Part shown: positions 22,455 to 36,139 of the stretch, piece by piece
Numbering within the stretch: the stretch's first letter is position 1
Layout of the letters: every line of letters starts with the position of its first letter
Virus record (IMG/VR): IMGVR_UViG_3300040751_002893
Span: 25,684-89,683 of that record
From: a virus
DNA: 64,000 bases
Reading direction: 5' to 3' (one strand)
Notes under the pieces: generated by a model
Databases searched by the model: none
What the model saw: the letters and a program-made list of their open reading frames with translations, nothing else
What the model was told of the DNA's origin: nothing
Program-made: the position numbers and the translations under genes

Positions 22455-22952
22455 CTAGTAATTAATTAAAAAATTAAAAAATCTTTCAAATTGTTCTTCA
22501 GTGCCGTATGTTAATAGAAATTTTTCCAAAGTCATCTCAGGTAAGACTTCACCACCAGCCCAAAATTCTAAAGGCTTTGAATTTGCTTTTTTTCTAATCC
22601 ATGGGGAATATTTTGTGCAAGACATCCACATCTCAATTAAACCATCGACTTGTTGCGGTTTTATAGCAGACCAGTCAGGGGCTTCTATCGTCATTAAATA
22701 AGCATTTGATACTTTAATCCAGCCATCAGGTGTCCAATCTAAACCTACACTTTCTAAATAATCCCCATGCGTATATGCAACATTTATTCTTTTTTGGTAT
22801 TCGGTCGCAAATGATTCTAAATCTATAAAGTTTCCTTCCAGATCTATAAAGCCGAGAGAGTGAACAGCGCAAGAATCTCTATCAACTTCTTTAAGGGCTT
22901 TGCGAAGTTCTTCTTTTATGATTTGTTTTATTTGTTTGTTCGTTAATTTCAT
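22455..22952 (-). CDS. MKLT-tag protein
   Basis: 165 residues. MKLTNKQIKQIIKEELRKAL is the shared N-terminal helix; the remainder (HSLGFIDLEGNFIDLESFAT; SAIKPQQVDGLIEMWMSCTK) is a globular domain I do not recognise. A cluster of three tag-bearing genes follows here (22.4-24.1 kb). Confidence 0.75.
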   Translation of the reverse strand: MKLTNKQIKQIIKEELRKALKEVDRDSCAVHSLGFIDLEGNFIDLESFATEYQKRINVAYTHGDYLESVGLDWTPDGWIKVSNAYLMTIEAPDWSAIKPQQVDGLIEMWMSCTKYSPWIRKKANSKPLEFWAGGEVLPEMTLEKFLLTYGTEEQFERFFNFLINY

Positions 22953-22974
22953 GGTATTTAATTTTTATTAATTT

Positions 22975-23346
22975 TTAAAAAGGAGGTTCTTCGTCGATCT
23001 CTTTTTGGTCATATCCTTGGTATTCAAACTTAATATCTTCGGCTATATTTATCAACCGCTCCAATCCGGACATTCCACGAGACTCTTGGTATTCATATAT
23101 AGCATCCGCCAACATGTCAACAAGTTGTTTTCTATGTGAGTCTTTGTGGTCTCCGAGGATTGACCTTTCATTATGTAATATAATAGCATTTTTTTTCATG
23201 GTGCTCATTATGGTTTGATAATTTGCAGTCATTGCAGCAGACAAGATATCATCAATAAAATCAAGCATAGGGTTACGAACTTCGTTAAGGACTTTGCGAA
23301 GTTCTTCGTTGATAATTTGTCTTAGTAAATTTTTGCTTATATTCAT
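22975..23346 (-). CDS. MNIS-tag protein
   Basis: 123 residues from ATG 23346 (ATGA overlap with the upstream stop). MNISKNLLRQIINEELRKVL is a divergent shared helix. The rest is a helical domain with HNERSILGDHKDSHRKQLVD. Function unknown. Confidence 0.72.
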   Translation of the reverse strand: MNISKNLLRQIINEELRKVLNEVRNPMLDFIDDILSAAMTANYQTIMSTMKKNAIILHNERSILGDHKDSHRKQLVDMLADAIYEYQESRGMSGLERLINIAEDIKFEYQGYDQKEIDEEPPF

Positions 23347-23681
23347 CGATATCTCTTCCAAGAAAACGCTTTGCGACGCACGGGGTATGTTGGGTCCTGA
23401 TCGTTGGCGTAAGCCTCTTTTTCAAACGGAATATTGCGATATGCGCCATGAAATGACCTGAACTTCCATAGGCCAACAAGCCAATACCAGACATACAGTA
23501 AATAAAACCCAATCAACAATAATTCGCGTTGCTGATGAAGGTGGATTATCTCATGTGTTTTTGTGCGCTGATCCAATTCGCCTTTGCAAATGATAAACGG
23601 ATAGAGCGTTATCGCCCATATGTTTATAAACAGCGAAAGCGCTTGGGGTATGCGGCTATTTTCTATAATATAAAACTTCAT
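23343..23681 (-). CDS. Membrane-associated HExxH protein
   Basis: 112 residues. LSLFINIWAITLYPFIICKG and LLLIGFYLLYVWYWLVGLW are membrane helices; between them THEIIHLHQQ has the HExxH motif and, after the second helix, FEKEAYAND gives an acidic third ligand. Could be a small membrane peptidase or degenerate relative; I recall similar proteins in bacteriophages and Bacteroidetes. Confidence 0.7.
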   Translation of the reverse strand: MKFYIIENSRIPQALSLFINIWAITLYPFIICKGELDQRTKTHEIIHLHQQRELLLIGFYLLYVWYWLVGLWKFRSFHGAYRNIPFEKEAYANDQDPTYPVRRKAFSWKRYR

Positions 23682-24095
23682 TTATTCTAAAGCTTTGCCG
23701 CTTTTAATGTTCGCAATGTATTCTTCTGTTTTTTCTATAGCATCTTGTATTTGCTTGTCATACATCAAACCTCTTTCTGAGTCTGGCATGTCTTCTTTTT
23801 GTTTACGAAGCTGTTGTAGGGTTTTTTCTGCATCTGCAAGATTCATTTTTCCTTTCTGTGAAGCTTCAGGGCGACCTGGGCTCATTCGTTCATCAGGAGG
23901 AAGCATGCCTCTACTTTTAAACTCATCTTCAATATCGCGCAACGTTCCAAATGATCTTGGGTCATCATCATAAGCATAGATATCATGTTGCTGCTTAAGT
24001 TCATCATCAGATAAGCCTTTAAGATTCATTTCTTTTAGAACAACTTGAAGCTCTTCCTTGATAAGTTGCTTAAGTGTTTGGTTTGTTAATTTCAT
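23682..24095 (-). CDS. MKLT-tag protein
   Basis: 137 residues. MKLTNQTLKQLIKEELQVVL is an intact shared helix; DDDPRSFGTLRDIEDEFKSR and a charged coiled coil (LADAEKTLQQLRKQKEDM) follow. Last gene of the left arm before a gene-free GC-rich gap. Confidence 0.75.
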   Translation of the reverse strand: MKLTNQTLKQLIKEELQVVLKEMNLKGLSDDELKQQHDIYAYDDDPRSFGTLRDIEDEFKSRGMLPPDERMSPGRPEASQKGKMNLADAEKTLQQLRKQKEDMPDSERGLMYDKQIQDAIEKTEEYIANIKSGKALE

Positions 24096-24336
24096 TTGTA
24101 TATCTCCTTGAAACTCGGAAATTTTTTCCCGATTTTTTTTTACACCTTAATTAGTCCTCCACTACATAAAGAGCCCACCCCCTTAAAAACCCAAATCTGG
24201 AAATTTTCTGTGTGTGGCGCGGGTGTATCTGGCCGCCGGCCGAAAAGCTAGGTTCTAAGCCACTTATTTCAAATCGGTATGCTCTAGGGGCAGGAGGAGG
24301 GGGACCCCCCCCTGCGCGAAAACGCGCTTTGAACCT
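24096..24336. other. Gene-free GC-rich junction between late-type and early-type arms
   Basis: 241 bp with no ORF. It contains, left to right, a plus-strand terminator-like hairpin (24115-24141), a GC-rich segment with GGCCGCCGGCC, GGGGGACCCCCC (about 24299-24312) and the perfect hairpin GCGCG-AAAA-CGCGC (24314-24327). Base composition is far above its surroundings. A genome terminus, packaging site or recombination junction are possibilities. Confidence 0.5.
24115..24141 (+). terminator. Possible plus-strand terminator
   Basis: TCGGAAAT...TTTCCCGA stem followed by nine T on the plus strand; the reverse direction has no T tract. All genes here are on the minus strand, so it would stop right-going RNA. 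Confidence 0.4.
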
Positions 24337-24858
24337 TTATTTTTTTCGGCGGCCAAAAAGCGTTCTGTCTTTGGGTGCGATGAAAACGTCGTTACAAGCT
24401 ACGTTATCGTGGTTGCGGTATTGCACTTCACCGAAGAGCGCGCGATAGTGACGTAGATAGTGCTCATTCACCTTGACCGAATAGGTAGACACCCACTGCC
24501 AGTTCCTAGTAGCGTAGGACTTGAATAGGCCACGAAGAGCCATGCGGAGGTCATGGCGGATACGAGAAAACTTGTCACCCGCTGCGGCCATGGTCTCCTT
24601 ACGGGGCACGTAGGTAGGGTCGACGAGGAGAATGGAGGTCATAAGCCGACTTTCGATGGTCTCCCAATACTCGTCACAGGCAGCGTAGACGGTATCTAGG
24701 TCGGACTGTGCGTAGACTTTGTGCCTCAAACCTACATTTTGCCACACTTGATATGCGGTCATCTTGTGGAGGTTGCCGCTGTGCGCTGATACTGTGTGCG
24801 TGTGCTTGATGTATTGAACGGACTTGAGAGGGATAAAGAGAGGATTGATTGTTTTCAT
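24337..24858 (-). CDS. Hypothetical protein
   Basis: 173 residues; MKTINPLFIPLKSVQYIKH start, then helical segments (ESRLMTSILLVDPTYVPRKE; RIRHDLRMALRGLFKSYATR). GC content clearly higher than the left arm, marking the change of region. No motif recognised. Confidence 0.65.
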   Translation of the reverse strand: MKTINPLFIPLKSVQYIKHTHTVSAHSGNLHKMTAYQVWQNVGLRHKVYAQSDLDTVYAACDEYWETIESRLMTSILLVDPTYVPRKETMAAAGDKFSRIRHDLRMALRGLFKSYATRNWQWVSTYSVKVNEHYLRHYRALFGEVQYRNHDNVACNDVFIAPKDRTLFGRRKK

Positions 24859-24911
24859 AGGTAGATCCTAGGTTATGGAGTAAGTAAGTGAAAAGGTAGG
24901 TTGGAAGCGGC

Positions 24912-25280
24912 TTATTGATCGAGATCGAAACCATCTTCCATGAGGTCAGCAAGAACATCTTCTGGGCAATCTTCAAAAAGCTCCTTTGTACTTGCCTTTT
25001 TGCTCTTGCGCTTTTTAGACTTAGAAGCTGGTTTATCGTAGGTTCCATCATCAATCTGGCGCATAGCGATTTCCATATTGAGTTCTTCGATACCCTCAGC
25101 AAGGTCGTTGTATCGCTGGTTGCTCGCATTGATACGTTCTACCTGTGTTTTCGAAAGACCGTTAAAGTCAGCGATCGTCCAGTCAGTGCGCATACGACGC
25201 GCATTGAACGGATCATTGTCATGAGGACAAACTTTGTCCAGTTGGAGGTGGCAAGAACAAGAAAAGTAACGAATAGACAT
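24912..25280 (-). CDS. Hypothetical protein with N-terminal cysteines and basic linker
   Basis: 122 residues. CSCHLQLDKVCPHDND near the start could bind zinc; PASKSKKRKSKKASTK is a basic linker and the tail is acidic (EDCPEDVLADLMEDGFDLD). SD AGGAG. Unknown. Confidence 0.62.
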   Translation of the reverse strand: MSIRYFSCSCHLQLDKVCPHDNDPFNARRMRTDWTIADFNGLSKTQVERINASNQRYNDLAEGIEELNMEIAMRQIDDGTYDKPASKSKKRKSKKASTKELFEDCPEDVLADLMEDGFDLDQ

Positions 25281-25357
25281 ATTGTCTCCTATAGTGAATG
25301 TTACAGTATATAAACAGAAAAAAAGTGAAAAAAGGACAGGTTTTTGGTGAGAGTCTC

Positions 25358-25372
25358 GGACAGTTTATGACC
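25358..25372 (-). promoter_or_regulatory. GGACA palindrome (divergent) before 24912-25280
   Basis: GGACAGTTTATGACC at the stop of the upstream gene. The -10-like TATACT is nearer the start, but no good -35 is visible, so promoter activity is less clear here. Confidence 0.5.
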
Positions 25373-25667
25373 GCACATTTTTTGGTCTCTCCATCTCAAA
25401 AGTCAGTTTGTCCATAACTGAAACAAGGTGGATTTGAGCGGTTGCAAGGTTCGCACAAGGGATACGAACCCATTGGGTTTTGTCGACGTCTACATCGATT
25501 TCCCAACCTTCGATAATGTAGTTACAACCTGTGTCTTTGATACGACCCCATACACGAGTGTGCTTTGAAGCACCGTTAGAGCGCATTGTGTTCACCCAAA
25601 CGCTGTGAGAAGGGCCAAAGCCGCGTGATTTGGTGATAGATGGGGTTGTAAGTGCGTTATTGGACAT
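25365..25667 (-). CDS. Hypothetical protein with three stacked start sites
   Basis: 100 residues from ATG 25667 (MSNNALTTPSITKSRGFGPS). Two more in-frame ATGs upstream (25718 and 25778) each have a strong SD. The N-terminal extension repeats L-S-N-N-T-G, because the leader AACAACACxGGAG is duplicated. The core ends LTFEMERPKNVRS. Function unknown; which start is used is open. Confidence 0.6.
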   Translation of the reverse strand: MSNNALTTPSITKSRGFGPSHSVWVNTMRSNGASKHTRVWGRIKDTGCNYIIEGWEIDVDVDKTQWVRIPCANLATAQIHLVSVMDKLTFEMERPKNVRS

Positions 25668-25811
25668 AGTGTCTCCTGTGTTGTTAGAAAGTGAGTTAGA
25701 AAGTGTATTTTGAGCCATGTGGCCTCCAGTGTTGTTAGAGAGGTGGTTATTGAAAAGTACGAAGTGATCAAGTCTCATGTGATCTCCTGAAAAGGTAGGT
25801 TAAAGGTGGGT

Positions 25812-25892
25812 TTATTCAAAAAGAGAAAGGAAATAGAAGAGGCCGATTGAGCCGATAAAAGCAAGGAAAAAAGAAGTGATAGCAATAAGCAT
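25812..25892 (-). CDS. Tiny membrane peptide (26 aa)
   Basis: MLIAITSFFLAFIGSIGLFY followed by FLSLFE; one transmembrane helix. Proper SD (GGAG, 7 bases) and its own promoter with double GGACA box, so expression looks deliberate. Confidence 0.65.
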   Translation of the reverse strand: MLIAITSFFLAFIGSIGLFYFLSLFE

Positions 25893-25928
25893 TTTTTGTC
25901 TCCGGGTTGTTTTGATTATACTATAATA

Positions 25929-25990
25929 TAACATGGTGAAAAGGGTCAAGTCAAGGTCTCGGACAGTTTGTGACCGGACAGTTTGTGTCC
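25929..25990 (-). promoter_or_regulatory. Promoter with two adjacent GGACA boxes, for the 26-aa membrane peptide
   Basis: Boxes 25961-25975 (GGACAGTTTGTGACC) and 25976-25990 (GGACAGTTTGTGTCC) abut end to end; then TTGACT, 18 bp, TATATT on the minus strand. Confidence 0.7.
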
Positions 25991-26190
25991 TACCATACGA
26001 GCCAGTCATATTGGCGAACAAGCTCTTCAGTTTGGCACTGATCCAAATCATAGGATAAAACTACGTTTTCAAGGGATTGAGCGAACTCTGGTTCTGCGCT
26101 TTCTTCAAGCTCGGAAACCAAGGTTTCAAGTGCTTTTTCGATGAGATCCCACTCTTCGGTGGTGAAATAGTTGTTTATGTTCTGAAGCAT
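25990..26190 (-). CDS. Small acidic helical protein
   Basis: 66 residues from ATG 26190 (SD AGAGG), MLQNINNYFTTEEWDLIEKA then acidic helices and RQYDWLVW at the end. The frame extends to 26301 but that part covers the promoter. Unknown. Confidence 0.65.
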   Translation of the reverse strand: MLQNINNYFTTEEWDLIEKALETLVSELEESAEPEFAQSLENVVLSYDLDQCQTEELVRQYDWLVW

Positions 26191-26242
26191 AAATCCTCTG
26201 GGAAAGAAAAAAAAATTTTGAGTGTCGAACCATCCGACATCT

Positions 26243-26310
26243 ATAATATGACCTGTTGGGAGGCTTTTGTCAATATGGGCGGACAACTTTTGACCGGACA
26301 CTTTTTGTCC
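26243..26310 (-). promoter_or_regulatory. Promoter with two adjacent GGACA boxes, for 25990-26190
   Basis: Boxes 26281-26295 and 26296-26310 abut; seven bases separate them from TTGACA, followed by a CATATTATA -10 region on the minus strand. Confidence 0.7.
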
Positions 26311-26331
26311 GGGCTCCGGAGCCTTTAATTT

Positions 26332-26366
26332 GAGTTATGAAAAGTTTTTTTGGCACGCTTTTTGCA
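26332..26366 (+). promoter_or_regulatory. Sigma-54 promoter 1 of triplet
   Basis: GAGTTATG (26332-26339), 10 bp, TTGGCACG-CTTT-TTGCA (26350-26366): perfect -24/-12 consensus with correct GG-to-GC spacing. Confidence 0.8.
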
Positions 26367-26379
26367 ATAGAATCATTTT

Positions 26380-26414
26380 GAGTTATGACAAATAAAATTG
26401 GCACGGATCTTGCA
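26380..26414 (+). promoter_or_regulatory. Sigma-54 promoter 2 of triplet
   Basis: GAGTTATG, 10 bp, TTGGCACG-GATC-TTGCA, exactly 48 bp after unit 1. Confidence 0.8.
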
Positions 26415-26427
26415 AGGGATATATTTT

Positions 26428-26462
26428 GAGTTATGAAAAGTTTTTTTGGCACACTTCTTGCA
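26428..26462 (+). promoter_or_regulatory. Sigma-54 promoter 3 of triplet
   Basis: GAGTTATG, 10 bp, TTGGCACA-CTTC-TTGCA, again 48 bp on. Confidence 0.8.
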
Positions 26463-26579
26463 AGGCCGATTTTGAGAATGAGAATCAATATCAATAGGAT
26501 CTCCGGACAAAAAATGACCGCAAGGAGTTTTATCTCCCTACGGGAGCGACCTTTATTCAAGGCGCACGCAAGGCCGTTT

Positions 26580-26957
26580 TTAGAGCATGCGACGCATGGT
26601 CATTTCGACACTCTCAAAGCCTTTGAGCTTGAATGTGGTGTAGGTTGGATCATGCTGGATGATGGTGTAACCATCTTGATCTGTGAAGATTGCAAAGTCA
26701 TCCTCCGCGCTCAAGTGTGCCTCATTCTGTGCTACCTGTTGCTCACGTGTGAGGTTATTGTATTCCATACACAAGGCCATGAGCCGCTGGTGCTGGAAGT
26801 CGCTCACTGGGAGAGCCATATACACCTTTACGAAGTGCGCATTGGAGATAATGTTCTTATGGCCAATGAGAGAAGAGTCGAGAGTATAGAGAAAATCAGT
26901 AGTTGGGAGAGTAGAGTATTTCATAGTAGTCTCGTTGTTAGTGTTAGATGTAGTCAT
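26580..26957 (-). CDS. Hypothetical protein
   Basis: 125 residues from ATG 26957 (SD AGGA). MTTSNTNNETTMKYSTLPTT; middle HFVKVYMALPVSDFQHQRLM; end FESVEMTMRRML. A long in-frame extension to 27236 crosses a G-rich repeat and another gene and is rejected. Unknown. Confidence 0.6.
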   Translation of the reverse strand: MTTSNTNNETTMKYSTLPTTDFLYTLDSSLIGHKNIISNAHFVKVYMALPVSDFQHQRLMALCMEYNNLTREQQVAQNEAHLSAEDDFAIFTDQDGYTIIQHDPTYTTFKLKGFESVEMTMRRML

Positions 26958-26970
26958 GTGTATATCCTGT

Positions 26971-27027
26971 GGAGGGGTGTAGGGTAGGGGGGTAGTAGTG
27001 TAGTATGTAGGGTGGTAGGCTAGTGGG
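26971..27027 (+). repeat. G-rich spacer (GGGTAGTA-type)
   Basis: Runs of G3-G6 separated by TA/TAGTA on the plus strand, so the minus-strand leader RNA is C/A-rich. Related tracts at 28.76, 32.2 and 45.9 kb. Confidence 0.6.
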
Positions 27028-27453
27028 CTACTTGTCGCTGGGGTGATCCATACGACCTGTGCTTGCATAGCCCCAGTTGTATCCGGTGTTTCCATCCGGT
27101 GCATAGCCATGCTCTCGGATACGCTTGTTGTCGGTGATCTCAATGCTTCGCACAATGAGGTTCCCATAGGGATCTTTTGCATAGCCTGTATTGAACTGCG
27201 CCATGAGCATGTTGAACTGGGCTGGGGTAAGCTCAATCTCTACGGAGGAAGCGTTCTTAAGGCAGATGGTGAGTGTGAGGTCACTCTTCTGAGAACGCAT
27301 TACATTGATGTTGTACTCCATGAGTACGGTATCGACTTGCTCTTGGGTGAGGCCATAAGTCTCTTGGACTTCTTCGATAGCGTTGGTTGCAAAGTCACCT
27401 CGGTTGATGAGCTTGGTGAGGAGGTTGAGAGAGTTAAAAATGATTGTGGACAT
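27028..27453 (-). CDS. Hypothetical protein
   Basis: 141 residues from ATG 27453 (SD CGGAG). Helical N-terminus IIFNSLNLLTKLINRGDFAT, beta middle (SDLTLTICLKNASSVEIEL), C-terminus GYAPDGNTGYNWGYAS. Unknown. Confidence 0.65.
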   Translation of the reverse strand: MSTIIFNSLNLLTKLINRGDFATNAIEEVQETYGLTQEQVDTVLMEYNINVMRSQKSDLTLTICLKNASSVEIELTPAQFNMLMAQFNTGYAKDPYGNLIVRSIEITDNKRIREHGYAPDGNTGYNWGYASTGRMDHPSDK

Positions 27454-27546
27454 AGTGTCTCCGAATAAAGGTTTTAGGGGGTTTGGACTTCGGAATGATT
27501 CAGCAGTCTTGAAACTCATTATCTCATTCGTTTTCGTCATATATAT

Positions 27547-27597
27547 AATATAAGCTGTTTTGTTGGTCTTGTCAAATGTGGTGGACAGTTTTTGTCC
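27547..27597 (-). promoter_or_regulatory. GGACA-cassette promoter (7-bp gap type) for 27028-27453
   Basis: Box GGACAGTTTTTGTCC (27583-27597), 7 bp, TTGACA, 17 bp, TATATT on the minus strand. Confidence 0.8.
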
Positions 27598-27599
27598 TA

Positions 27600-27911
27600 C
27601 TAGTGTTCTAAGGGGAATCTGTGGAGGTTTTGATACATGGTTCGGATCTCTCGTATCTGAGCTTTGTCAAGGCCATAGTAGTAAGCCTGAGTCAAGAGAG
27701 AACCATAGAAAGTATCGTCACCATAGTGAAGATCTTCTACAATGTTGTCAAAAGCTTCGATTGTAGCAGTCTCATAGAGGTCTTGCATACACTCCTTGTT
27801 GAAACAGTGCATACAAACTACCTTATCGTCATTGTTTCGGAAGTGTCCAATGTCATCCTCCGGAATGAAGGTAGAGCAATCTGAGCAGTGAATGAAAATA
27901 TTGTGAGCCAT
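27600..27911 (-). CDS. Zinc-ribbon protein
   Basis: 103 residues. HCSDCSTFIPEDD and VVCMHCFNKEC form a C-x2-C / C-x2-C ribbon in the first 40 residues; the rest is helical and acidic (YETATIEAFDNIVEDLHYGD). SD GGAGG. Possibly nucleic-acid or protein binding; unknown role. Confidence 0.7.
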   Translation of the reverse strand: MAHNIFIHCSDCSTFIPEDDIGHFRNNDDKVVCMHCFNKECMQDLYETATIEAFDNIVEDLHYGDDTFYGSLLTQAYYYGLDKAQIREIRTMYQNLHRFPLEH

Positions 27912-27956
27912 GAGGCCTCCAAAAGAATGTTGTTGTCGGTCGTTGCCGATACTTAT

Positions 27957-28007
27957 AGCTTATAGCATTGGAACGATTTTGTCAAATGTGGTGGTCAAAA
28001 TATGTCC
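27957..28007 (-). promoter_or_regulatory. GGACA-cassette promoter (7-bp gap type) for the zinc-ribbon gene
   Basis: GGTCAAAATATGTCC (27993-28007), 7 bp, TTGACA, 17 bp, TAAGCT. Confidence 0.65.
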
Positions 28008-28052
28008 GGTCTGGCTCTGAGCGTAGCTCAAACGGAGGTTGGGGTCGGATTT

Positions 28053-28087
28053 GAGTTATGTATATTTTTTTTGGCACACTTCTTGCA
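28053..28087 (+). promoter_or_regulatory. Sigma-54 promoter
   Basis: GAGTTATG, 10 bp, TTGGCACA-CTTC-TTGCA. Confidence 0.8.
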
Positions 28088-28199
28088 AACACGAAAAAAG
28101 TCTTGACACGTTTTTATCTCGCTCTGGGAGCAACCTAAACTCACGCTATCTGTATGGCCGTTTTTGGAGCTTTGAAAAGTCTTGACGCAAAGCTCATTT

Positions 28200-28234
28200 G
28201 AGTTATGGTAAGAAGTTTTGGCACACCTTTTGCA
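28200..28234 (+). promoter_or_regulatory. Sigma-54 promoter
   Basis: GAGTTATG, 10 bp, TTGGCACA-CCTT-TTGCA; followed within 15 bp by GAGAATGAGAATCAAAATCA, the same start-proximal sequence as after the 26.4 kb triplet. Confidence 0.8.
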
Positions 28235-28287
28235 AGGGATCAAAATGAGAATGAGAATCAAAATCAAAAAGGATTGGGCGCATACGC

Positions 28288-28310
28288 AAAAAAGCTCTTA
28301 AAAAGAGCTT
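28288..28310 (-). terminator. Rho-independent terminator of the 28.5-29.4 kb unit
   Basis: Minus strand AAGCTCTT, TTT loop, AAGAGCTT, then TTTT. Perfect 8-bp stem. Confidence 0.65.
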
Positions 28311-28396
28311 GGAAAAAATAGGCGATAATCGGAAAGTTTACGGAGTAAAAGGCGTTTTACATGTGGGAGCACTAGTTAGGTATAGGTGCGTGTGTT

Positions 28397-28413
28397 TTGG
28401 CATGGTTCTTGCT
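28397..28413 (+). promoter_or_regulatory. Weaker sigma-54-like box
   Basis: TTGGCATG-GTTC-TTGCT; conserved GG/GC spacing but no GAGTTATG at the fixed distance. Confidence 0.45.
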
Positions 28414-28514
28414 CTGATACGTCCACATATAAGGCACATTTTCAATACATCCATAACGCACATCCAACAAACATTTTCATAAAGTTTATTTCCTCCACCT
28501 TCTAGCCCATTCGT

Positions 28515-28739
28515 TTACTTGCGTTTGGGCTTTTTTGCACATAGCTTTCCACACGCTCTAGCGGGCTTGGGATTGGCTAGCTGACTATGCACAAGCTGAC
28601 GTTCTCTCATATCCATGAGGACACCAACAAGCTCAAGAGCTTCCAATAGCGTCATATCGCCTACGGCTTTATCAAGTCCGTTATCAATGATTGTGAGGGT
28701 TCTATCTATCAATGTGTCTAGTGTGTTCTGTGTATTCAT
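28515..28739 (-). CDS. Small helical protein with basic tail
   Basis: 74 residues: TLDTLIDRTLTIIDNGLDKA, EALELVGVLMDMRERQ, tail CGKLCAKKPKRK. SD GGAA. Directly after it the operon ends in a terminator. Unknown. Confidence 0.65.
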   Translation of the reverse strand: MNTQNTLDTLIDRTLTIIDNGLDKAVGDMTLLEALELVGVLMDMRERQLVHSQLANPKPARACGKLCAKKPKRK

Positions 28740-28760
28740 AGGAAGTTCCTTGGTTTTCGG

Positions 28761-28797
28761 TTGGGGGTAGGGTAGTAGGGTAGTAGGTTAGGGGATA
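28761..28797 (+). repeat. G-rich spacer (GGGTAGTA repeat)
   Basis: GGGGGTAGGGTAGTAGGGTA then GTAGGTTAGGGG; four G3+ runs, G-quadruplex-capable on the plus strand. Confidence 0.6.
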
Positions 28798-28802
28798 GGA
28801 TA

Positions 28803-28991
28803 CTAGCATGTGAAGTCAATCAGTTCCATGTCAAGATCAAACTCGTTCTGATAGTGATCGAACATATCTTGGTCTATTACTTCGTAACACTCATCTTCCT
28901 TGTTATGGATAAAGAAAGCAACGTAGTTGTAAGATACAGTGTCAAAGTAAAGAGCAGCGTTCTTATAAAAAGAGAAAGTTTTATTTTTCAT
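28803..28991 (-). CDS. Small acidic protein
   Basis: 62 residues, TFSFYKNAALYFDTVSYNYV then acidic end DMELIDFTC. SD GGAG. Unknown. Confidence 0.65.
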   Translation of the reverse strand: MKNKTFSFYKNAALYFDTVSYNYVAFFIHNKEDECYEVIDQDMFDHYQNEFDLDMELIDFTC

Positions 28992-29082
28992 GTGTTCTCC
29001 GATTGTTCAGTTTGATGGTGAGATATGAGAAGGTGATAGATACGGTTAGTTGTATGAGGGTTAGCGTCAATAGAGGGTTCAT
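28981..29082 (-). CDS. Tiny membrane peptide (33 aa)
   Basis: MNPLLTLTLIQLTVSITFSY with a short basic tail; one membrane helix. ATG overlaps the upstream stop (ATGA) and its end overlaps the downstream start, which supports translation. Confidence 0.6.
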   Translation of the reverse strand: MNPLLTLTLIQLTVSITFSYLTIKLNNRRTHEK

Positions 29083-29366
29083 TTCAGCACCTGCTTGCAG
29101 ATTAGAGGGATAGCGTATTCTTCATACGCATGTAGCATTTCTTGGAGGTTGCGATACGCTTGTCTCTTGCGTTGGATCTCTACAAGATCATTCACATAAG
29201 AACCATCGGGATTCTTTTGGTCTTGTAGCTCGTCAATCTCAATGTATAGGCAGTTCAAGTCTTTGTATAACTTTGAGAGGGTAGCTACTTCTGCGAAGTA
29301 TTCGTATCGGGTGTCCATAGTTCCGTTTCGGTATGCTTGTAGTGCAAGGTCAAGATAGTTTGTCAT
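29079..29366 (-). CDS. Helical hypothetical protein
   Basis: 95 residues from ATG 29366 (SD GGAG). Coiled-coil LYKDLNCLYIEIDELQDQ and IQRKRQAYRNLQEMLHAYEE. Unknown. Confidence 0.65.
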   Translation of the reverse strand: MTNYLDLALQAYRNGTMDTRYEYFAEVATLSKLYKDLNCLYIEIDELQDQKNPDGSYVNDLVEIQRKRQAYRNLQEMLHAYEEYAIPLICKQVLK

Positions 29367-29392
29367 GTTGTCTCCAGTTGTTCGGTACATCT

Positions 29393-29444
29393 ATAATATA
29401 ATCGGTTCTCAGCTATTGTCAAGTGTGGTGGACAAAATGTGTCC
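29393..29444 (-). promoter_or_regulatory. GGACA-cassette promoter (7-bp gap type) for 29079-29366
   Basis: GGACAAAATGTGTCC (29430-29444), 7 bp, TTGACA, TATTAT-like -10. Confidence 0.75.
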
Positions 29445-29445
29445 G

Positions 29446-29826
29446 TTAGTCCAGTTCCAGTTCGCATTGGTCATTGAGTTCATCACGTACAGTCTCGTAA
29501 CACTCATGGATGACTTCCCATCCTTGGACATAAACCCACATGTTGCAGACAGCCTCTGGAGAGGATAGGTCTGTGTGGACTTCTCCGAAGTTGTGTTGCT
29601 CATACTCTTGAACGTCACCGATCATATCGAAAGCAGAATCGCCCATCCATTGCTTAGCTTGGTAGTGACCAATGATGTAATAGTCTCGGTTAAAGATTTG
29701 GTCATGCAAGTCTGAAACATAAGCGTCTCGGAAGTCTTGGTTGTCCATGTATTCTGCGATCTCACGAAGTCGGTCAAGGCAAAAGTCTTTGATTTCTTTT
29801 TGGTTTTGTTGGTAAGTGAATGACAT
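29446..29826 (-). CDS. Acidic hypothetical protein
   Basis: 126 residues; FTYQQNQKEIKDFCLDRLRE, then AKQWMGDSAFDMIGDVQEYE and an acidic C-terminus. SD GGAG. Unknown. Confidence 0.68.
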   Translation of the reverse strand: MSFTYQQNQKEIKDFCLDRLREIAEYMDNQDFRDAYVSDLHDQIFNRDYYIIGHYQAKQWMGDSAFDMIGDVQEYEQHNFGEVHTDLSSPEAVCNMWVYVQGWEVIHECYETVRDELNDQCELELD

Positions 29827-29855
29827 ATTGTCTCCGTTGGTTGGGTTATATTAGT

Positions 29856-29899
29856 AATGTATCTGATTGGGGTGGAAAAGTCAAGGACAGAAAATGTCC
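29856..29899 (-). promoter_or_regulatory. GGACA-cassette promoter (abutting type) for 29446-29826
   Basis: GGACAGAAAATGTCC (29885-29899) directly followed on the minus strand by TTGACT, 17 bp, TACATT. Confidence 0.8.
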
Positions 29900-29901
29900 G
29901 T

Positions 29902-30063
29902 TTACACTGGTGTGGCTCTGAAGTCTTTTGCATTGCGTGGTGCTTTCTTGCGTGCCTTGCTGATAGCATCCTGTTTGGATGTGGCTTGCACTCGGATGAA
30001 TCCGTACTGCGCTCCAAAGTTTGCGCCTGTTGTATTGTATGTGTAGTCTACGAAATAAGTCAT
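29902..30063 (-). CDS. Small protein with helical basic C-terminus (53 aa)
   Basis: From ATG 30063 (SD CGGAG): TYFVDYTYNTTGANFGAQYG, then ATSKQDAISKARKKAPRNAK. Looks like a beta hairpin plus basic helix, possibly nucleic-acid binding. Unknown. Confidence 0.6.
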   Translation of the reverse strand: MTYFVDYTYNTTGANFGAQYGFIRVQATSKQDAISKARKKAPRNAKDFRATPV

Positions 30064-30077
30064 GTTGTTCTCCGTTG

Positions 30078-30329
30078 TTAGCATGAATATGGTTGGTTGT
30101 TGTCTTGTTGTTTTCGTGGTGTGCAGTGACCGTTCTCTATAAGAGCGTCTGCTGTTCTATGGAACCATCCTTGTAGCTGATAGGCCATCCCAGTGTCGAT
30201 AAGCACTTGCCAAGCTTGGATGTATTGCTCTTGGCTCTCGGCTTGATAGACACCCTCAGCGATCATGATTGCATCAAAGGTGGGCATTTCTTCTTCAAAG
30301 GGTAGTTCAAGTTGTATCATTTTAGACAT
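30078..30329 (-). CDS. Small hypothetical protein
   Basis: 83 residues; QLELPFEEEMPTFDAIMIAE then amphipathic helices and a Q/N-rich tail. SD CGGAG. Unknown. Confidence 0.62.
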   Translation of the reverse strand: MSKMIQLELPFEEEMPTFDAIMIAEGVYQAESQEQYIQAWQVLIDTGMAYQLQGWFHRTADALIENGHCTPRKQQDNNQPYSC

Positions 30330-30350
30330 ATTGTCTCCGTTGTTTGGGTT

Positions 30351-30521
30351 CTAGTTATTTGGTTTGAGTTGTACCATATCGGCTTTAACAAAAGGTTTCC
30401 ATCTGGTCGAATAACCTGCTACATTTGCTGTTCTTTTAGAACGTTTGTACCATCTGACACCTTCAAAATAGAAGTATGATCGTACTGGGATTTGACTGAA
30501 TGAAATATGTTTGTTGGTCAT
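30351..30521 (-). CDS. Small basic aromatic protein (56 aa)
   Basis: MTNKHISFSQIPVRSYFYFE, VRWYKRSKRTANVAGYSTRW; high K/R/Y/W. SD CGGAG. Candidate nucleic-acid binder. Confidence 0.6.
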   Translation of the reverse strand: MTNKHISFSQIPVRSYFYFEGVRWYKRSKRTANVAGYSTRWKPFVKADMVQLKPNN

Positions 30522-30549
30522 AGTGACTCCGTTGGTTGGTGATGTTTAT

Positions 30550-30593
30550 AATGTATCTCGTTTGGTTGGAAAAGTCAAGGACACTTTTTGTCC
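30550..30593 (-). promoter_or_regulatory. GGACA-cassette promoter (abutting) for 30351-30521
   Basis: GGACACTTTTTGTCC (30579-30593) then TTGACT, 17 bp, TACATT. The TGA inside the -35 is the stop of 30575-30781. Confidence 0.8.
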
Positions 30594-30781
30594 TTTTCTA
30601 TAAAGTCCACAAGGTCAACGTCAACCTTGACAATGCGTGAACCTGTTTCGCAGTTAGGGAAATGCACAGTCAGTTCTGTGCTAGGGTAAAGCCACCCTGT
30701 GGATCTATAGTCCGTAACTACGCCTATTCCAAAGAACTTGTGCTGTTTTGTTTTTTTACGCTTTACTAGTTTACCAATCAT
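30575..30781 (-). CDS. MIGKLV-type small protein ending in the promoter
   Basis: 68 residues; MIGKLVKRKKTKQHKFFGIG, strands with LTVHFPNCETGSRI, end DLVDFIEKDKKCP. Last six codons are encoded by the GGACA box and the stop TGA by the -35 of the next promoter. SH3-like small barrel predicted from strand pattern. Confidence 0.65.
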   Translation of the reverse strand: MIGKLVKRKKTKQHKFFGIGVVTDYRSTGWLYPSTELTVHFPNCETGSRIVKVDVDLVDFIEKDKKCP

Positions 30782-30812
30782 TTTAACTCCGTTGTTGGTT
30801 GGTGATGTTTAT

Positions 30813-30856
30813 AATGTATCTCGTTTGGTTGGTTTAGTCAAGGACATTTTTTGACC
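30813..30856 (-). promoter_or_regulatory. GGACA-cassette promoter (abutting) for 30575-30781
   Basis: GGACATTTTTTGACC (30842-30856), TTGACT, 17 bp, TACATT. Confidence 0.8.
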
Positions 30857-30989
30857 GTTTGTCTATTTTCCCTCTGCAAGCCATCTTGTTGGCCTGTTTT
30901 TTCTTGTCTCCATGAGATCCTGAGCCTGAGCCTTGACGTTTGATATGCTCAAGATGTGTGAGATTGCGAGGTTGTAACTTCTTTTTCAT
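30834..30989 (-). CDS. Very basic small protein (51 aa)
   Basis: MKKKLQPRNLTHLEHIKRQG, GSGSGSHGDKKKQANKMACR, end SKNVLD read through the GGACA box and -35. Net charge strongly positive. Possible RNA/DNA binding peptide. Confidence 0.55.
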   Translation of the reverse strand: MKKKLQPRNLTHLEHIKRQGSGSGSHGDKKKQANKMACRGKIDKRSKNVLD

Positions 30990-30997
30990 GGTTCTTC

Positions 30998-31177
30998 CTA
31001 GTTTAAGTCGGTTGGATCAAAACAAGCTTTGATAAGCTCCATGAGAGCCTGTTCTGCTATCTCTCGGAGTTGTGGTGGGGTTCCATCTATATTCAAGGCT
31101 TGCAAAGCAAGATTGATGGATACAAAGGTTTCGTGGTCTTTTCCATCAAAGATGGAGGATAAAGGCATTTTGTTCAT
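30998..31177 (-). CDS. Small helical protein (59 aa)
   Basis: MNKMPLSSIFDGKDHETFVS, then PPQLREIAEQALMELIKACF. No SD stronger than GGAGA before the ATG. Unknown. Confidence 0.6.
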   Translation of the reverse strand: MNKMPLSSIFDGKDHETFVSINLALQALNIDGTPPQLREIAEQALMELIKACFDPTDLN

Positions 31178-31186
31178 GGTTGTCTC

Positions 31187-31444
31187 CTATTGAAGAGGTT
31201 CTATTGTGTTGCTTATGTCGTTTAGGGTGTCGATAGACAAACCAGTAACGAATTCATATTCAGTACAGGTTCGGTAGCCACCCATACCGTTTGGGGTTTG
31301 TCTTGTGGTATGGGAAAGATAGACTACTGGCTTGCCATTTACGAGGATTAGATCGCCTTTCGTAAGGCTTTCAGCCCACATGTTCTTACCATGGTTTGGA
31401 TAGTGTTTGTGGAAGTTCTTTGCGAAGTTAAGCATGGTTCTCAT
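31187..31444 (-). CDS. KGDLI-type small protein
   Basis: 85 residues; N-terminal helix NFAKNFHKHYPNHGKNMW, then SLTKGDLILVNGKPVVYLSH and EYEFVTGLSIDTL. The KGDL strand sits internally rather than at the start. SD CGGAG. Confidence 0.65.
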   Translation of the reverse strand: MRTMLNFAKNFHKHYPNHGKNMWAESLTKGDLILVNGKPVVYLSHTTRQTPNGMGGYRTCTEYEFVTGLSIDTLNDISNTIEPLQ

Positions 31445-31473
31445 TTTGTCTCCGTTTCAGTTGGTGATGTTAG

Positions 31474-31524
31474 TAATGTAACCCATTGAGAAAAAAAGTC
31501 AAATCGGGAGGACAGAATATGTCC
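31474..31524 (-). promoter_or_regulatory. GGACA-cassette promoter (7-bp gap type) for 31187-31444
   Basis: GGACAGAATATGTCC (31510-31524), 7 bp, TTGACT, then T-A-C-A-T-T near 31475-31480. Confidence 0.72.
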
Positions 31525-31569
31525 GGCAAGGGTTCGTTCCCTTTAGGGAACGGATTGAGGAACTGGTTT

Positions 31570-31604
31570 GAGTTACGTAAACTTTTTTTGGCATAGATAT
31601 TGCA
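31570..31604 (+). promoter_or_regulatory. Sigma-54 promoter
   Basis: GAGTTACG, 10 bp, TTGGCATA-GATA-TTGCA. Confidence 0.7.
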
Positions 31605-31646
31605 AGGGGTGTCTCTACTCTGAAACTGCCCCTCGCGCTATCTCAT

Positions 31647-31895
31647 TCACCGTTTGACTTTGATATGGTAGCTTGAACCTCGTTTATTGACATAGAGTGT
31701 CTCAATACCGTCCACATGCTCGTCACGTGCGATCGCATCAAGTAGGTGTTGCACGTCAAACTGTGTAACAGTTTCCTCGCTTATGACGTTCGCTACGAAG
31801 TCATGAAGATCTCCATCCCAATCACCCCAAAGGTTCTCTATGAAGTCAAGAGCCTCTTTCACTGCCTTGATGGTGACTGTTGTTTTATCCTTCAT
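31647..31895 (-). CDS. Small hypothetical protein
   Basis: 82 residues from ATG 31895 (SD GGAGG): TTVTIKAVKEALDFIENLWG, ETVTQFDVQHLLDAIARDE, end SSYHIKVKR. Unknown. Confidence 0.65.
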   Translation of the reverse strand: MKDKTTVTIKAVKEALDFIENLWGDWDGDLHDFVANVISEETVTQFDVQHLLDAIARDEHVDGIETLYVNKRGSSYHIKVKR

Positions 31896-32019
31896 TTTTG
31901 CCTCCGTAGTGAAAGGTGTCGTACTTGGTTGTGCGCTTGATCTCCTTTGGAGACAGGACACGCACTTGTGTTCCCTTACGTGTGGTGATAATCACCTTGT
32001 CCATTGTGTATTTACTCAT
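31885..32019 (-). CDS. Tiny basic protein (44 aa)
   Basis: From ATG 32019 (SD AGGAGG): SKYTMDKVIITTRKGTQVRV, SPKEIKRTTKYDTFHYGG. One KGTQVRV strand suggests a minimal version of the KGDL barrel type. Confidence 0.6.
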   Translation of the reverse strand: MSKYTMDKVIITTRKGTQVRVLSPKEIKRTTKYDTFHYGGKNEG

Positions 32020-32186
32020 GTATCCTCCTGTGGTTGTGTGAGTTGTGTGTAGTAGAAGCGCAGACTGCTCTCGCTTATGTGAGCAAAGCAATCGGGAGCG
32101 TCAATGTATCTGAGTGTGTAGAATCCATCTTTGACCGCAGTGCATACGCATATGCCGCTCTCGCTCTTCCATAGTGTGCCGACCAT
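32016..32186 (-). CDS. MVGTLW-type small protein (56 aa)
   Basis: MVGTLWKSESGICVCTAVKD, GFYTLRYIDAPDCFAH, end QLTQPQEDT. Overlaps the next gene by ATGA. Same family as the two genes upstream. Confidence 0.68.
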   Translation of the reverse strand: MVGTLWKSESGICVCTAVKDGFYTLRYIDAPDCFAHISESSLRFYYTQLTQPQEDT

Positions 32187-32198
32187 AGTTTCTCCTTG

Positions 32199-32230
32199 GT
32201 GGGGGTAGGGTAGTAGGGTAGTAGGTTAGG
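32199..32230 (+). repeat. G-rich spacer (GGGTAGTA repeat)
   Basis: GTGGGGGTAGGGTAGTAGGG then TAGTAGGTTAGG, almost identical to the 28.76 kb copy. Its left end covers the stop and last codons of 32226-32390. Confidence 0.6.
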
Positions 32231-32390
32231 CTATCTTGGTCATGGATCTCTCTACGAAGAAATCACGAAGTGTCACATGACCTAGACTGGGTGTTGTAAA
32301 CACATAGTACAACGCCCCACCTGTTGTATAGTATTTGTCTTTGAGAATGTATATCTTGCCTTTTCGACATTTCCATAGTGTACCAATCAT
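32226..32390 (-). CDS. MIGTLW-type small protein (54 aa)
   Basis: MIGTLWKCRKGKIYILKDKY, then GALYYVFTTPSLGHVTLRDF. Clear relative of 32016-32186 and 32387-32569. Confidence 0.68.
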   Translation of the reverse strand: MIGTLWKCRKGKIYILKDKYYTTGGALYYVFTTPSLGHVTLRDFFVERSMTKIA

Positions 32391-32569
32391 TCTTCTTCCG
32401 TTGGTGTTAAGGGTTCAAAGTATCTATCCAGTTCTCGTAGTCCTTTGACTACCCATGTGTCTCCGTTTGTTATACAAACCATGGTGAAGTAGGGTATGTG
32501 TGCATAGTCTATGCTTATGCAAGCGTATATGTGCTTACTGTGTCTTGATCTATACAACATCCCTATCAT
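32387..32569 (-). CDS. MIGMLY-type small protein (60 aa)
   Basis: MIGMLYRSRHSKHIYACISI, PYFTMVCITNGDTWVVKGLR, tail PLTPTEEE. Third member of this tandem trio. First small gene after the VWA-metallopeptidase. Confidence 0.68.
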   Translation of the reverse strand: MIGMLYRSRHSKHIYACISIDYAHIPYFTMVCITNGDTWVVKGLRELDRYFEPLTPTEEE

Positions 32570-32577
32570 GTTATCAC

Positions 32578-33816
32578 CTAGTCTATCGCTATGACACGTT
32601 CATTAGTTGTGAAGTAAGGGTTCTCCTTGCCTCGTTGGTCAGTCATCCACATGCGTTGGCACTTGCTGGCTATCGGCTTTGGAGCCTCCATATCTGTGAG
32701 GATGATGTGACCATCGAAACCGTTCTCATTGACGTATCGTGTCGGAGCGTCAAAGCATGTGCCGCCACACTTGACACGTTCCCATGTCTTGCGTTCACCT
32801 TTCTTCCAAGTGTAGACAAGACTCTCGTCCACTTCAGTATCAAAAGGCACAACGGTAAACTCTGCAAGGCTTGATAGGCTATTGAGTTCTGCGAAGAATG
32901 AGGCAAGCATTTCATCCGATACAGAACCAGACTGGTCAATGCTGATAGCAATCTTGGCTTGACGTGTAACCTTGCGACCGGCATGAATGTATGGAAACCT
33001 ACGGTTAAGTCTACGAACAGTCGAACGCTTATTGCTACGCTGTGAAGTCTTGATGAAGTATCTCAGAACCTTGCGCCAGTCAATCTTGGGAGTGATAGCA
33101 TCCATGATCTGCTTACGAACGTCTGCCGATACAGATCCCCAGCCTTGACCGCTTGAAGCATCCTTGGCGGCTTTCTCCATAGCATCTTTCAAACGCTCTT
33201 TGGCCATAGCCTTTGTCTCTTCGTCAACGTCACCCCAACCGCTATGGTCGTCAAGAACGTGGTCACCAAGAGAAGAGCCTTGGCCTTGGCCTTGTGATGG
33301 ATCGCCTTGGCCTTGACCGCCTTGACCGTCACCTTGGCCTTGACCATCGTCTTTCTTGAACTGCTCATCTTCTTCAATAATCTTAAGATAAGCCTCAGCA
33401 GATAAACCGACAGGATAGTCTGCGAAAGGTGTATCGGCTTTGCCGGGTATACAGCCACCATCGGGCAACATGTCAGCAATATGACTGTTGATTGCAAGGT
33501 CTGTCGCAACGTTCCACTTCATAGACATACCCTCAGCCGGAAGTCGTGTGGTGACATGCTCAAAGATGATGTGGTAAAACTCGTGCATTAGAACACCAAG
33601 CTTTTGCTTGTCTGTAAGGCTAGCCATGAACTCTGGATTGTAAAGCATCTCAAACTGTGCTGACTGTGGATTGATACGGACACCAGCAGTTGGAATGTGC
33701 TTGGATGGTGCTTTGTGAATACGTCTTGAAAGACTTGCGAAGAACGGTTCTTGTTGTAGCAAACGGAAAGTGTGCATGTTCAAGTCAAACTTTTCTGTTG
33801 TTTCGTTATCACTCAT
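32578..33816 (-). CDS. VWA-like metallopeptidase, partner of the MoxR ATPase
   Basis: 412 residues. ~70-100 KLGVLMHEFYHIIFEHVTTR gives an HExxH site; ~155-185 is a Q/G/D-rich low-complexity linker (GQGDGQGGQGQGDPSQG); the C-terminal VWA-like part has AISIDQSGSVSDEMLASFF (D-x-S-x-S MIDAS), GGTCFDAP and ILTDMEAP. This is the COG3864-type partner usually encoded beside a MoxR AAA ATPase, found about 0.9 kb upstream. The pair probably works as a chaperone-like or metal-dependent remodelling machine; target unknown. Confidence 0.88.
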   Translation of the reverse strand: MSDNETTEKFDLNMHTFRLLQQEPFFASLSRRIHKAPSKHIPTAGVRINPQSAQFEMLYNPEFMASLTDKQKLGVLMHEFYHIIFEHVTTRLPAEGMSMKWNVATDLAINSHIADMLPDGGCIPGKADTPFADYPVGLSAEAYLKIIEEDEQFKKDDGQGQGDGQGGQGQGDPSQGQGQGSSLGDHVLDDHSGWGDVDEETKAMAKERLKDAMEKAAKDASSGQGWGSVSADVRKQIMDAITPKIDWRKVLRYFIKTSQRSNKRSTVRRLNRRFPYIHAGRKVTRQAKIAISIDQSGSVSDEMLASFFAELNSLSSLAEFTVVPFDTEVDESLVYTWKKGERKTWERVKCGGTCFDAPTRYVNENGFDGHIILTDMEAPKPIASKCQRMWMTDQRGKENPYFTTNERVIAID

Positions 33817-34072
33817 TGGAATCTCCTTGTTGGGGTGATATAGATAACTTATCCGATTGGGATGGTTTTGTCAAACGTGGTGGACAAAAACTGTCCGGTA
33901 GTTTAGAAAGCTCTATTCTGTCTAGGTTGGTGTGCGCTTCCTCTATCTTTTGAGCTAGGGATTTGACTTCCAAAGGCTCCGACAGTTCTTCAAGCTCTGG
34001 TGGAAACTCAATCTTTTGTCTTTGTATTGCGTAATACGTTATATTGCTGTATTGTAGCTTTGGTCTACTCAT
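33809..34072 (-). CDS. Hypothetical protein overlapping a cassette promoter
   Basis: 87 residues, SD GGAGG. PKLQYSNITYYAIQRQKIEF, helical middle, then SKLPDSFCPPRLTKPSQSDK, which is the reading of the GGACA box and following promoter; it ends inside the next gene's start. The last third may be non-conserved read-through. Confidence 0.55.
   Translation of the reverse strand: MSRPKLQYSNITYYAIQRQKIEFPPELEELSEPLEVKSLAQKIEEAHTNLDRIELSKLPDSFCPPRLTKPSQSDKLSISPQQGDSNE
33846..33896 (-). promoter_or_regulatory. GGACA-cassette promoter (7-bp gap type) for the VWA-metallopeptidase
   Basis: GGACAAAAACTGTCC (33882-33896), 7 bp, TTGACA, 17 bp, TAAGTT; lies inside the 3' end of 33809-34072. Confidence 0.75.
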
Positions 34073-34274
34073 TGGTTCCTCCTGTCTTGAAACCCATAGG
34101 TGCTTTCTTCTTGGGCTTTTCTGCCTTGGGAAGTGCTTGTGGTGGCATAGCCATACCCATAAGGGCTTGCAAGGGTATTCCCATAGAGTTGCCTTGTGGT
34201 TGCATAGCCATGATTAGCTTGGATAATAGCTCGTCTGATATGTTCAGTGTAATATTAATCTCGTTATTGCTCAT
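34065..34274 (-). CDS. Small protein, M/P/Q-rich
   Basis: 69 residues from ATG 34274 (SD GGAG). INITLNISDELLSKLIMAMQ then GNSMGIPLQALMGMAMPPQA and a basic end. Overlaps both neighbours. Between MoxR and VWA genes, so possibly linked to their function. Confidence 0.6.
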   Translation of the reverse strand: MSNNEINITLNISDELLSKLIMAMQPQGNSMGIPLQALMGMAMPPQALPKAEKPKKKAPMGFKTGGTNE

Positions 34275-34605
34275 TGGTTTCTCCTGCATTGTCTACAATG
34301 CTTTTAAGTAGTTGTTGCTTGTGGGTTGGTAGTAAGGACTTTTGGTGGTTTAGGGTTTCCACGTCGGGCATTAGGAACAAAGACCAGTCTTTGAGAGTCT
34401 TGGATAGTTGCCTTGCCTGTTTCAATGTGATGTTGTGTCTGATGGAATAGCCTGTGGACATGTGTGATAATGTCCATGACTTTTCATCCTCTTTACGATG
34501 GACATAGAAAGGGAAGTCATTTCCGTAGGAACCATCACAATATGTCCAAACTGGATGATTATCTTCAAATGTTCGTATCTTGAATGTACCTTTGCGTATT
34601 CTCAT
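34264..34605 (-). CDS. Hypothetical protein
   Basis: 113 residues from ATG 34605 (SD GGAG). RIRKGTFKIRTFEDNHPVWT, beta-rich, then DVETLNHQKSLLPTHKQQLL. A hairpin CTCCTTG/CAAGGAG (about 34640-34663) lies in its leader. Unknown. Confidence 0.62.
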   Translation of the reverse strand: MRIRKGTFKIRTFEDNHPVWTYCDGSYGNDFPFYVHRKEDEKSWTLSHMSTGYSIRHNITLKQARQLSKTLKDWSLFLMPDVETLNHQKSLLPTHKQQLLKSIVDNAGETNEQ

Positions 34606-34679
34606 AGGTGTCTCCATAGAAAGGGATTATAGTCTCCTTGTTTCAAGGCACAAGGAGCCAAAGCCAGCGAGGTGAAATG

Positions 34680-35741: not shown

Positions 35742-35792
35742 GGGAGGCCTCCGTTTGTTTTGTTGTTAGTTCTTCGTTATGAAGATGTTTAT

Positions 35793-35836
35793 ATTATAAC
35801 TAGGTTAGGGTTTGTTGTCAAGGACATTTTTTGTCC
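35793..35836 (-). promoter_or_regulatory. GGACA-cassette promoter (abutting) for MoxR
   Basis: GGACATTTTTTGTCC (35822-35836) then TTGACA, 17 bp, TATAAT: full consensus, the strongest cassette promoter seen. Confidence 0.85.
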
Positions 35837-36137: not shown

Positions 36138-36139
36138 GT

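Follow-up and report, generated by a model that had tools for sequence, protein, structure and literature searches.

Tandem arrays of sigma-54-type sites opposed to the genes of a phage genome as candidate docking sites for host RNA polymerase

Sigma-54-type modules at four loci of the window

The window, a 64,000-nucleotide stretch (positions 25,684 to 89,683) of the 89.7-kb virus record IMGVR_UViG_3300040751_002893 from IMG/VR, belongs to a record in which nearly all genes lie on the minus strand. It contains nine copies of a 35-bp module, AGTTAYG-N10-TTGGCAY-N5-TTGCAA, arranged as two triplets, a pair, and a single copy at four loci that we named A, B, C, and D. All nine copies are on the plus strand, opposed to the genes. 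The features of these loci, in window coordinates, are as follows.

26245-26310 (-): promoter of sigma-70 type at 26273-26245, reading divergently into the left-hand gene, and tandem GGACA-N5-TGTCC-type operators (26280-26310) between this promoter and array A
26333-26367 (+): array A module 1 (AGTTATG-N10-TTGGCAC-N5-TTGCAA)
26381-26415 (+): array A module 2
26429-26463 (+): array A module 3
26474-26492: Fur-box-like sequence directly downstream of array A, GAGAATGAGAATCAATATC, with 3 mismatches to GATAATGATAATCATTATC
26580-26957 (-): gene faced by array A; conserved partner in the 141-kb relative, 58%; overlapped by a plus-strand ORF, 26433-26987
28054-28088 (+): array B module 1
28201-28235 (+): array B module 2
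28247-28265: Fur-box-like sequence downstream of array B, GAGAATGAGAATCAAAATC
28397-28413 (+): lone sigma-54-like core, TTGGCATGGTTCTTGCT, without the upstream box
28515-28739 (-): gene faced by array B; conserved partner in the 141-kb relative, 61%
31571-31605 (+): module C, single (GTTACG variant, GGCAT)
31647-31895 (-): gene faced by module C; conserved partner in the 141-kb relative, 84%, and in a third phage, 44%
45020-45430: AT-rich near-palindromic repeats of about 20 bp (TTTATGNAASTT..TAAA type) that flank and separate the array D modules; kept in relatives
45141-45175 (+): array D module 1
45230-45264 (+): array D module 2
45314-45348 (+): array D module 3
45382-45410 (+): consensus sigma-70-type promoter, TTGACA-N17-TATAAT, on the same strand directly after array D
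45432-45626 (-): gene faced by array D; conserved partner in the 141-kb relative, 78%

Each locus follows the same order. From the left, the start of a minus-strand gene is followed by its divergent sigma-70-type promoter and usually by a GGACA-N5-TGTCC palindrome; then come the sigma-54-type modules in the opposite orientation, and last the 3′ end of the following minus-strand gene.

The original prediction described a triplet of sigma-54 promoters on the plus strand, at a place with no plus-strand gene. Three exact TTGGCAC-N5-TTGCA boxes are indeed present at 26350, 26398, and 26446 on the plus strand (48 and 48 bp from start to start), each with GAGTTATG 10 bp upstream. The triplet is real, but the term is too narrow for nine modules at four loci, where copy number varies and further cores begin at 28071 and 28218 (147 bp apart), at 31588 (a variant with GTTACG and GGCAT), and at 45158, 45247, and 45331 (spacings of 89 and 84 bp). 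Across the whole 89.7-kb record, the exact pattern TTGGCACN5TTGCA was found eight times, compared to an expectation of about 0.008; all eight occurrences are on the plus strand and none on the minus strand, and the reversed pattern does not occur. No plus-strand gene was found at the modules, as had been predicted: the ORF at 26433-26987 begins within a module and overlaps a conserved minus-strand gene, and most modules read ATG-TAA (T in 43, A in 43, and A in 47 of 48), so that they are non-coding.

The spacing between the -24 GG and the -12 GC is invariant across all modules of four genomes. When the full module was scored against its own matrix, 49 distinct modules gave 39.7 to 55.8 bits and nothing else in these four genomes exceeded 12 bits, indicating that there are no decaying copies. 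Among 48 modules of the window’s clade, the last base of GGCAY is C in 41 and T in 7, the base after it is G in 28 and A in 20 (R in 48 of 48, at a position outside the search pattern), and W follows TTGC in 46. Besides this R, other positions that were not searched for are also fixed, namely the A before GTTAYG, the AA(A) after it, the TT before the -12 element, and the AA after TTGC. The bases that vary are those at which sigma-54 tolerates change. Positions -4 to +1 are 83-91% AT, compared to about 66% further downstream, and the modules look as if they could open. The AGTTAYGTAAA half of the module is just as invariant in this clade as the sigma-54 half; it is part of no sigma-54 consensus and sits at about -40, at a fixed distance from the core.

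We found no Rfam match in the window, no plus-strand terminator within about 800 bp of array A, and no conserved RNA product of the arrays. No phage-encoded sigma-54 was detected in five records, and a search for a phage activator returned only weak hits, in the window’s record to a MoxR-like AAA protein, with none above the family cut-off.

Conservation and surroundings in related phages

A scan of viral contigs found the module in at least 12 related contigs, where it is opposed to the genes as well. The long carriers are a collinear 141-kb phage with 12 modules, a 42.5-kb contig with seven, and a 53-kb contig with three, and further short contigs hold two or three modules each. In the four long records, 31 of 31 modules, at about seven separate loci, face against the genes, in agreement with the predicted orientation. 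Conservation of the -24 and -12 bases in relatives had been proposed as a check, and these bases show almost no change in the at least 12 related viral contigs, which are partly redundant. The exact 48-bp period that had been predicted is true of array A but not in general, as homologous arrays in relatives are spaced 48-61 bp and the second triplet, array D, 64-98 bp. Module number also differs at loci A and B, with three and two copies in the window and two and three in the 141-kb relative (spacings of 50, 58, and 50 bp). When array D was aligned over 12 contigs, the modules were near-constant and the DNA between them was variable.

Contigs were also fetched without use of the motif, by homology to the phage GroEL (1.02 Mb). 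Array D was present in every contig of at least 77% identity that reaches the place, while more distant contigs had none. Core counts in the fetched contigs were 37 on the antisense strand, 6 on the other strand, and 2 for the control pattern read in reverse. In all arrays located by synteny, the third codon base of GGC is still present. A blastn search for named phages or plasmids with similar array DNA returned nothing but short, weak matches to one array A query. We rejected the idea that the module copies a host promoter: among 84,980 bacterial and archaeal genomes, the strict composite pattern matched at only four scattered places, none of them in an array, and these were judged to be chance. 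Seven motif hits (L016, L017, L018, L021, L034, L037, and L042) were also discarded; they are single, have no TAA after the box, and look like chance matches in coding sequence.

In the 141-kb relative, the faced gene has a conserved partner at four of four loci, whereas the gene on the opposite side has a clear homologue at only one. This synteny ties the arrays to the gene that they face. In most relatives, array D is followed by a sigma-70-type promoter that reads the same way.

Fur-like palindromes follow arrays A and B and a third array in the 141-kb relative. That genome contains five exact copies of TGANAATNATTNTCA (Fur-box type), all within 35.0-40.5 kb; four of the five are no more than about 60 bp from a sigma-54 array, and exact copies occur at the place homologous to the site downstream of array A. 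A Fur box is a 7-1-7 palindrome of the TGATAATNATTATCA type; in the window, where weaker versions follow arrays A and B, the sequence has one mismatch to the TGANAATNATTNTCA pattern and three to the classical box.

Every array in the window has GGACA-N5-TGTCC palindromes 40-150 bp upstream, and such palindromes are also found at many minus-strand promoters without arrays. About 25 copies of the operator GGACA-N5-TGTCC(G) occur at 25224-45018 of the window (51 strand-hits, compared to 0.8 expected). With few exceptions they fall in the early gene region, for the most part close to minus-strand promoters; a single copy exists in the 141-kb relative. The set looks as if it served a phage regulator that varies in specificity from one relative to another. 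Four contigs (L035, L039, L040, and L041) have a CTACTCATGAGTAG-type palindrome near their arrays in place of GGACA-N5-TGTCC, a possible switch of operator specificity between related phages.

Other traits of the region were recorded in passing. The early region (record positions 50000-62000, window about 24300-36300) coincides with an island of 0.40-0.45 GC, compared to about 0.37, in which the GC skew is reversed, and a matching high-GC, reversed-skew island lies at 34-50 kb of the reversed relative. Three adjacent minus-strand ORFs at 22455-24095 share an N-terminal tag of the MKLTNKQIKQIIKEELRKALKEV type. A VWA-like/metallopeptidase DUF2201 protein and a MoxR-type AAA ATPase are encoded side by side on the minus strand (32578-33816 and 34680-35741), a pair kept in the collinear relative, and the phage also encodes a UV-damage endonuclease, UvdE (39183-40103, minus strand), and a GroEL-type chaperonin (49765-51339, minus strand).

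Clusters of sigma-54 cores in other viral lineages

Sigma-54 promoters had been called rare in phages, a statement contradicted by our scans of the collection for cores without the upstream box. At least 120 viral stretches carry two tandem sigma-54 cores, compared to 8 in a full scan of the reversed control, and at least 119 carry three. Among the matches listed, 198 loci hold 1,024 cores in 1.63 Mb, against 7 reversed controls. The clusters at these listed loci comprise 2-12 sites, the largest having 9-12, with nine sites within about 200 bp; sites occur on both strands in 83 of the 198, in some cases strictly alternating, and the loci range from 30 to 64% GC. Sites in dense clusters are spaced 26-28 bp apart, or alternate in strand every 18-28 bp, which is too close for independent promoters. 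One GC-rich 55.9-kb phage contig (L273) has ten sigma-54 consensus sites in 288 bp (1964-2251), mostly 26-28 bp apart.

At positions that were not searched for, 211 non-redundant sites outside the window’s clade match the sigma-54 consensus, with R after GGCAY in 96% and W after TTGC in 89%. No common upstream box was found in these 211 sites, and the AGTTAYGTAAA box is specific to the window’s clade. Grouping the first 118 loci by shared proteins placed 58 in one group and the remainder in about 40 more, although the contigs are short and the lineages may therefore be fewer than the groups. In the large, podovirus-like group, the cluster lies between a replication module (DNA polymerase, primase-helicase, and thymidylate synthase) and a packaging module (terminase and portal). 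In this group the sites are frequently directed toward the replication genes; one-way opposition to genes therefore characterizes the window’s clade rather than the class.

DnaA boxes of the sequence TTATCCACA are 36-fold denser near the clusters than elsewhere on the same contigs (42 in 106 kb vs. 10 in 905 kb) and occur at 16 of the 118 loci, among them L149, L154, L164, L171, L173, L197, L198, and L227. As a bacterial background, 198 genomes were sampled from Bacteroidota only, and none contained tandem sigma-54 cores. The arrays had also been described as phased. Raw spacings hinted at helical phasing, but the signal was not specific to 10.5 bp once redundancy was removed, and phasing is not established.

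Possible capture of sigma-54 polymerase and competing explanations

On its sites, sigma-54 polymerase forms a closed complex that persists until it is opened by an ATP-driven activator. We propose that the modules serve as docking sites, of high affinity, for the sigma-54 (RpoN) form of the host RNA polymerase, which would be held in this closed state until such an activator acts. That sigma-54 polymerase binds the modules is very probable, since unrelated phages have converged on the full sigma-54 consensus. In the window’s clade, the AGTTAYGTAAA box is probably bound by a further protein acting together with the polymerase. The many near-perfect copies lie in non-coding gaps and point such that accidental firing would not drive the phage’s own genes. 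Sequestration of the polymerase as a consequence of binding is possible, though we hold it with less than even confidence. E. coli contains roughly 100 molecules of RpoN. Compared with this number, which may differ in the phage’s own host, the 9-12 or so sites per genome at infection are few, so titration could work only after replication of the phage DNA, when sites could exceed the host’s RpoN supply.

Several known systems resemble the arrays in part. Mycobacteriophage L5 carries many copies of a short site, the stoperator, in intergenic gaps and in fixed orientation to the genes. Copy number, intergenic spread, and orientation are shared with the phage modules, but stoperators bind the phage’s own repressor, whereas the module matches a host sigma-54 consensus. 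Qrr and GlmY/GlmZ are small RNAs driven by sigma-54; they have in common with the arrays a sigma-54 promoter without a protein-coding gene, whereas the arrays lack an RNA family match, a terminator, and a conserved RNA. Titration arrays include the multicopy Fur boxes of the Fur titration assay and datA, which titrates DnaA. Synthetic transcription-factor decoys have likewise been built as titration arrays (PMC7826281). In all of these, non-coding DNA that yields no product of its own carries consensus sites for a host regulator in many copies; here, by contrast, a form of RNA polymerase would be captured, the carrier is a phage, and titration is a putative effect. Sigma-54 promoters (TGGCAYR-N4-TTGCW), including the E. 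coli sites (PMC4591121), share with the modules the -24 GG, the -12 GC, their spacing, and the Y/R/W degeneracy, and closed-complex binding would be expected; the phage modules differ in being tandem, near-perfect, joined to a fixed AGTTAYGTAAA box, and all directed against the genes, with no activator site identified and no product. Among the host sites found by sigma-54 mapping in E. coli, many are reported to be inactive or antisense (PMC4591121), a useful precedent for binding without an obvious product. We found no published account in the open-access literature of sigma-54 site arrays in phages or of phages targeting or using sigma-54 through DNA sites.

Titration of RpoN and the making of non-coding or antisense RNA had both been put forward in the original prediction as possible functions. 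Regulated antisense transcription is a close rival of capture and fits the one-way orientation of the window’s clade better. Here the modules would be working sigma-54 promoters from which an active host enhancer-binding protein drives RNA, antisense or non-coding, that runs over the 3′ end of the faced early gene and down-regulates it, and a Fur-like or other downstream operator would add a second input, such as iron status. This explanation, which we consider possible but somewhat doubtful, accounts for the uniform anti-gene orientation in four genomes, the conservation of the faced gene at all four loci (58, 61, 84, and 78%) against one clear homologue on the other side, the AT-rich -4 to +1 region, the same-direction sigma-70-type promoter after array D in most relatives, and the operators downstream of arrays A, B, and a third array, including the five exact TGANAATNATTNTCA copies within 35.0-40.5 kb of the 141-kb genome. 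It is harder to reconcile with the absence of an RNA family, a terminator, or a conserved product, and no enhancer-binding-protein site was identified, the box at about -40 being too near for a looping activator. Three or more tandem perfect promoters would also be excessive for a single antisense RNA, and in other phages the sites on both strands are spaced such that neighbors would block each other.

Two further readings are improbable. The arrays could be part of a replication origin at which the AT-rich repeats bind an initiator and the sigma-54 and sigma-70 promoters supply primer RNA, as the setting of array D among near-palindromic repeats of about 20 bp with a sigma-70 promoter and the 36-fold enrichment of DnaA boxes at 16 loci of other phages might suggest. 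Near the arrays of the window’s clade, however, we found no DnaA-box cluster; the turning point of the GC skew is 2-2.5 kb leftward of the first arrays, array D shows no turn, and seven separate loci in one early region are unlike an origin. An equally unlikely reading takes the module as the site of another protein (a phage regulator, an insulator, or a packaging factor) with a coincidental likeness to sigma-54 sites. The invariance of the AGTTAYGTAAA half, outside any sigma-54 consensus, would agree with this, but in unrelated lineages, at 30-64% GC, convergence has produced the sigma-54 core by itself, the unsearched R and W included. It is far less probable still that the repeats encode a short peptide (M..x.GT.LA) or are CRISPR-like repeats with spacers. 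In array A, the ATG of GTTATG is in frame with GGC-AC (MKSFFGTLFA and MTNKIGTDLA), and the spacers between modules are variable; yet no open frame runs through the modules, most of which contain ATG-TAA, the third codon base of GGC is never lost in arrays found by synteny, and the irregular spacing of 48 to 98 bp does not fit a CRISPR-like array. Both candidates were rejected.

We tentatively favor the reading in which the sigma-54 polymerase of the host docks at the arrays and is most likely retained there in closed complexes. Capture explains the near-perfect sites, the tandem copies, the over-dense lattices and both-strand clusters of other phages, and the absent product. Many consensus sites and no gene product, as expected of a titration array, are found both in the window’s clade and at the 198 loci among the matches listed. 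Indifference to orientation, which would also be expected, is seen in the mixed strands of 83 of these 198 listed loci but not in the window’s clade. There, the uniform orientation (31 of 31) is not needed for titration and argues against capture, as do the Fur-like operators or palindromes immediately behind several arrays, at the position expected of a transcriptional repressor, the AT-rich -4 to +1 region, and the synteny with the faced gene. With still more reserve, we suggest that dense sigma-54 lattices might be a widespread, convergently evolved phage “polymerase sponge” that acts by closed-complex capture, in some lineages beside DnaA or Fur sites.

Sigma-54 governs nitrogen use, motility, phage-shock, and envelope responses in many bacteria. 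If the arrays are promoters, many phages would run antisense or early transcription through a form of polymerase that requires an activator, and infection would depend on the nitrogen or stress state of the host. If they capture sigma-54 polymerase, they would represent a strategy of host takeover that consists of DNA alone and can be detected in sequence data by a simple pattern.
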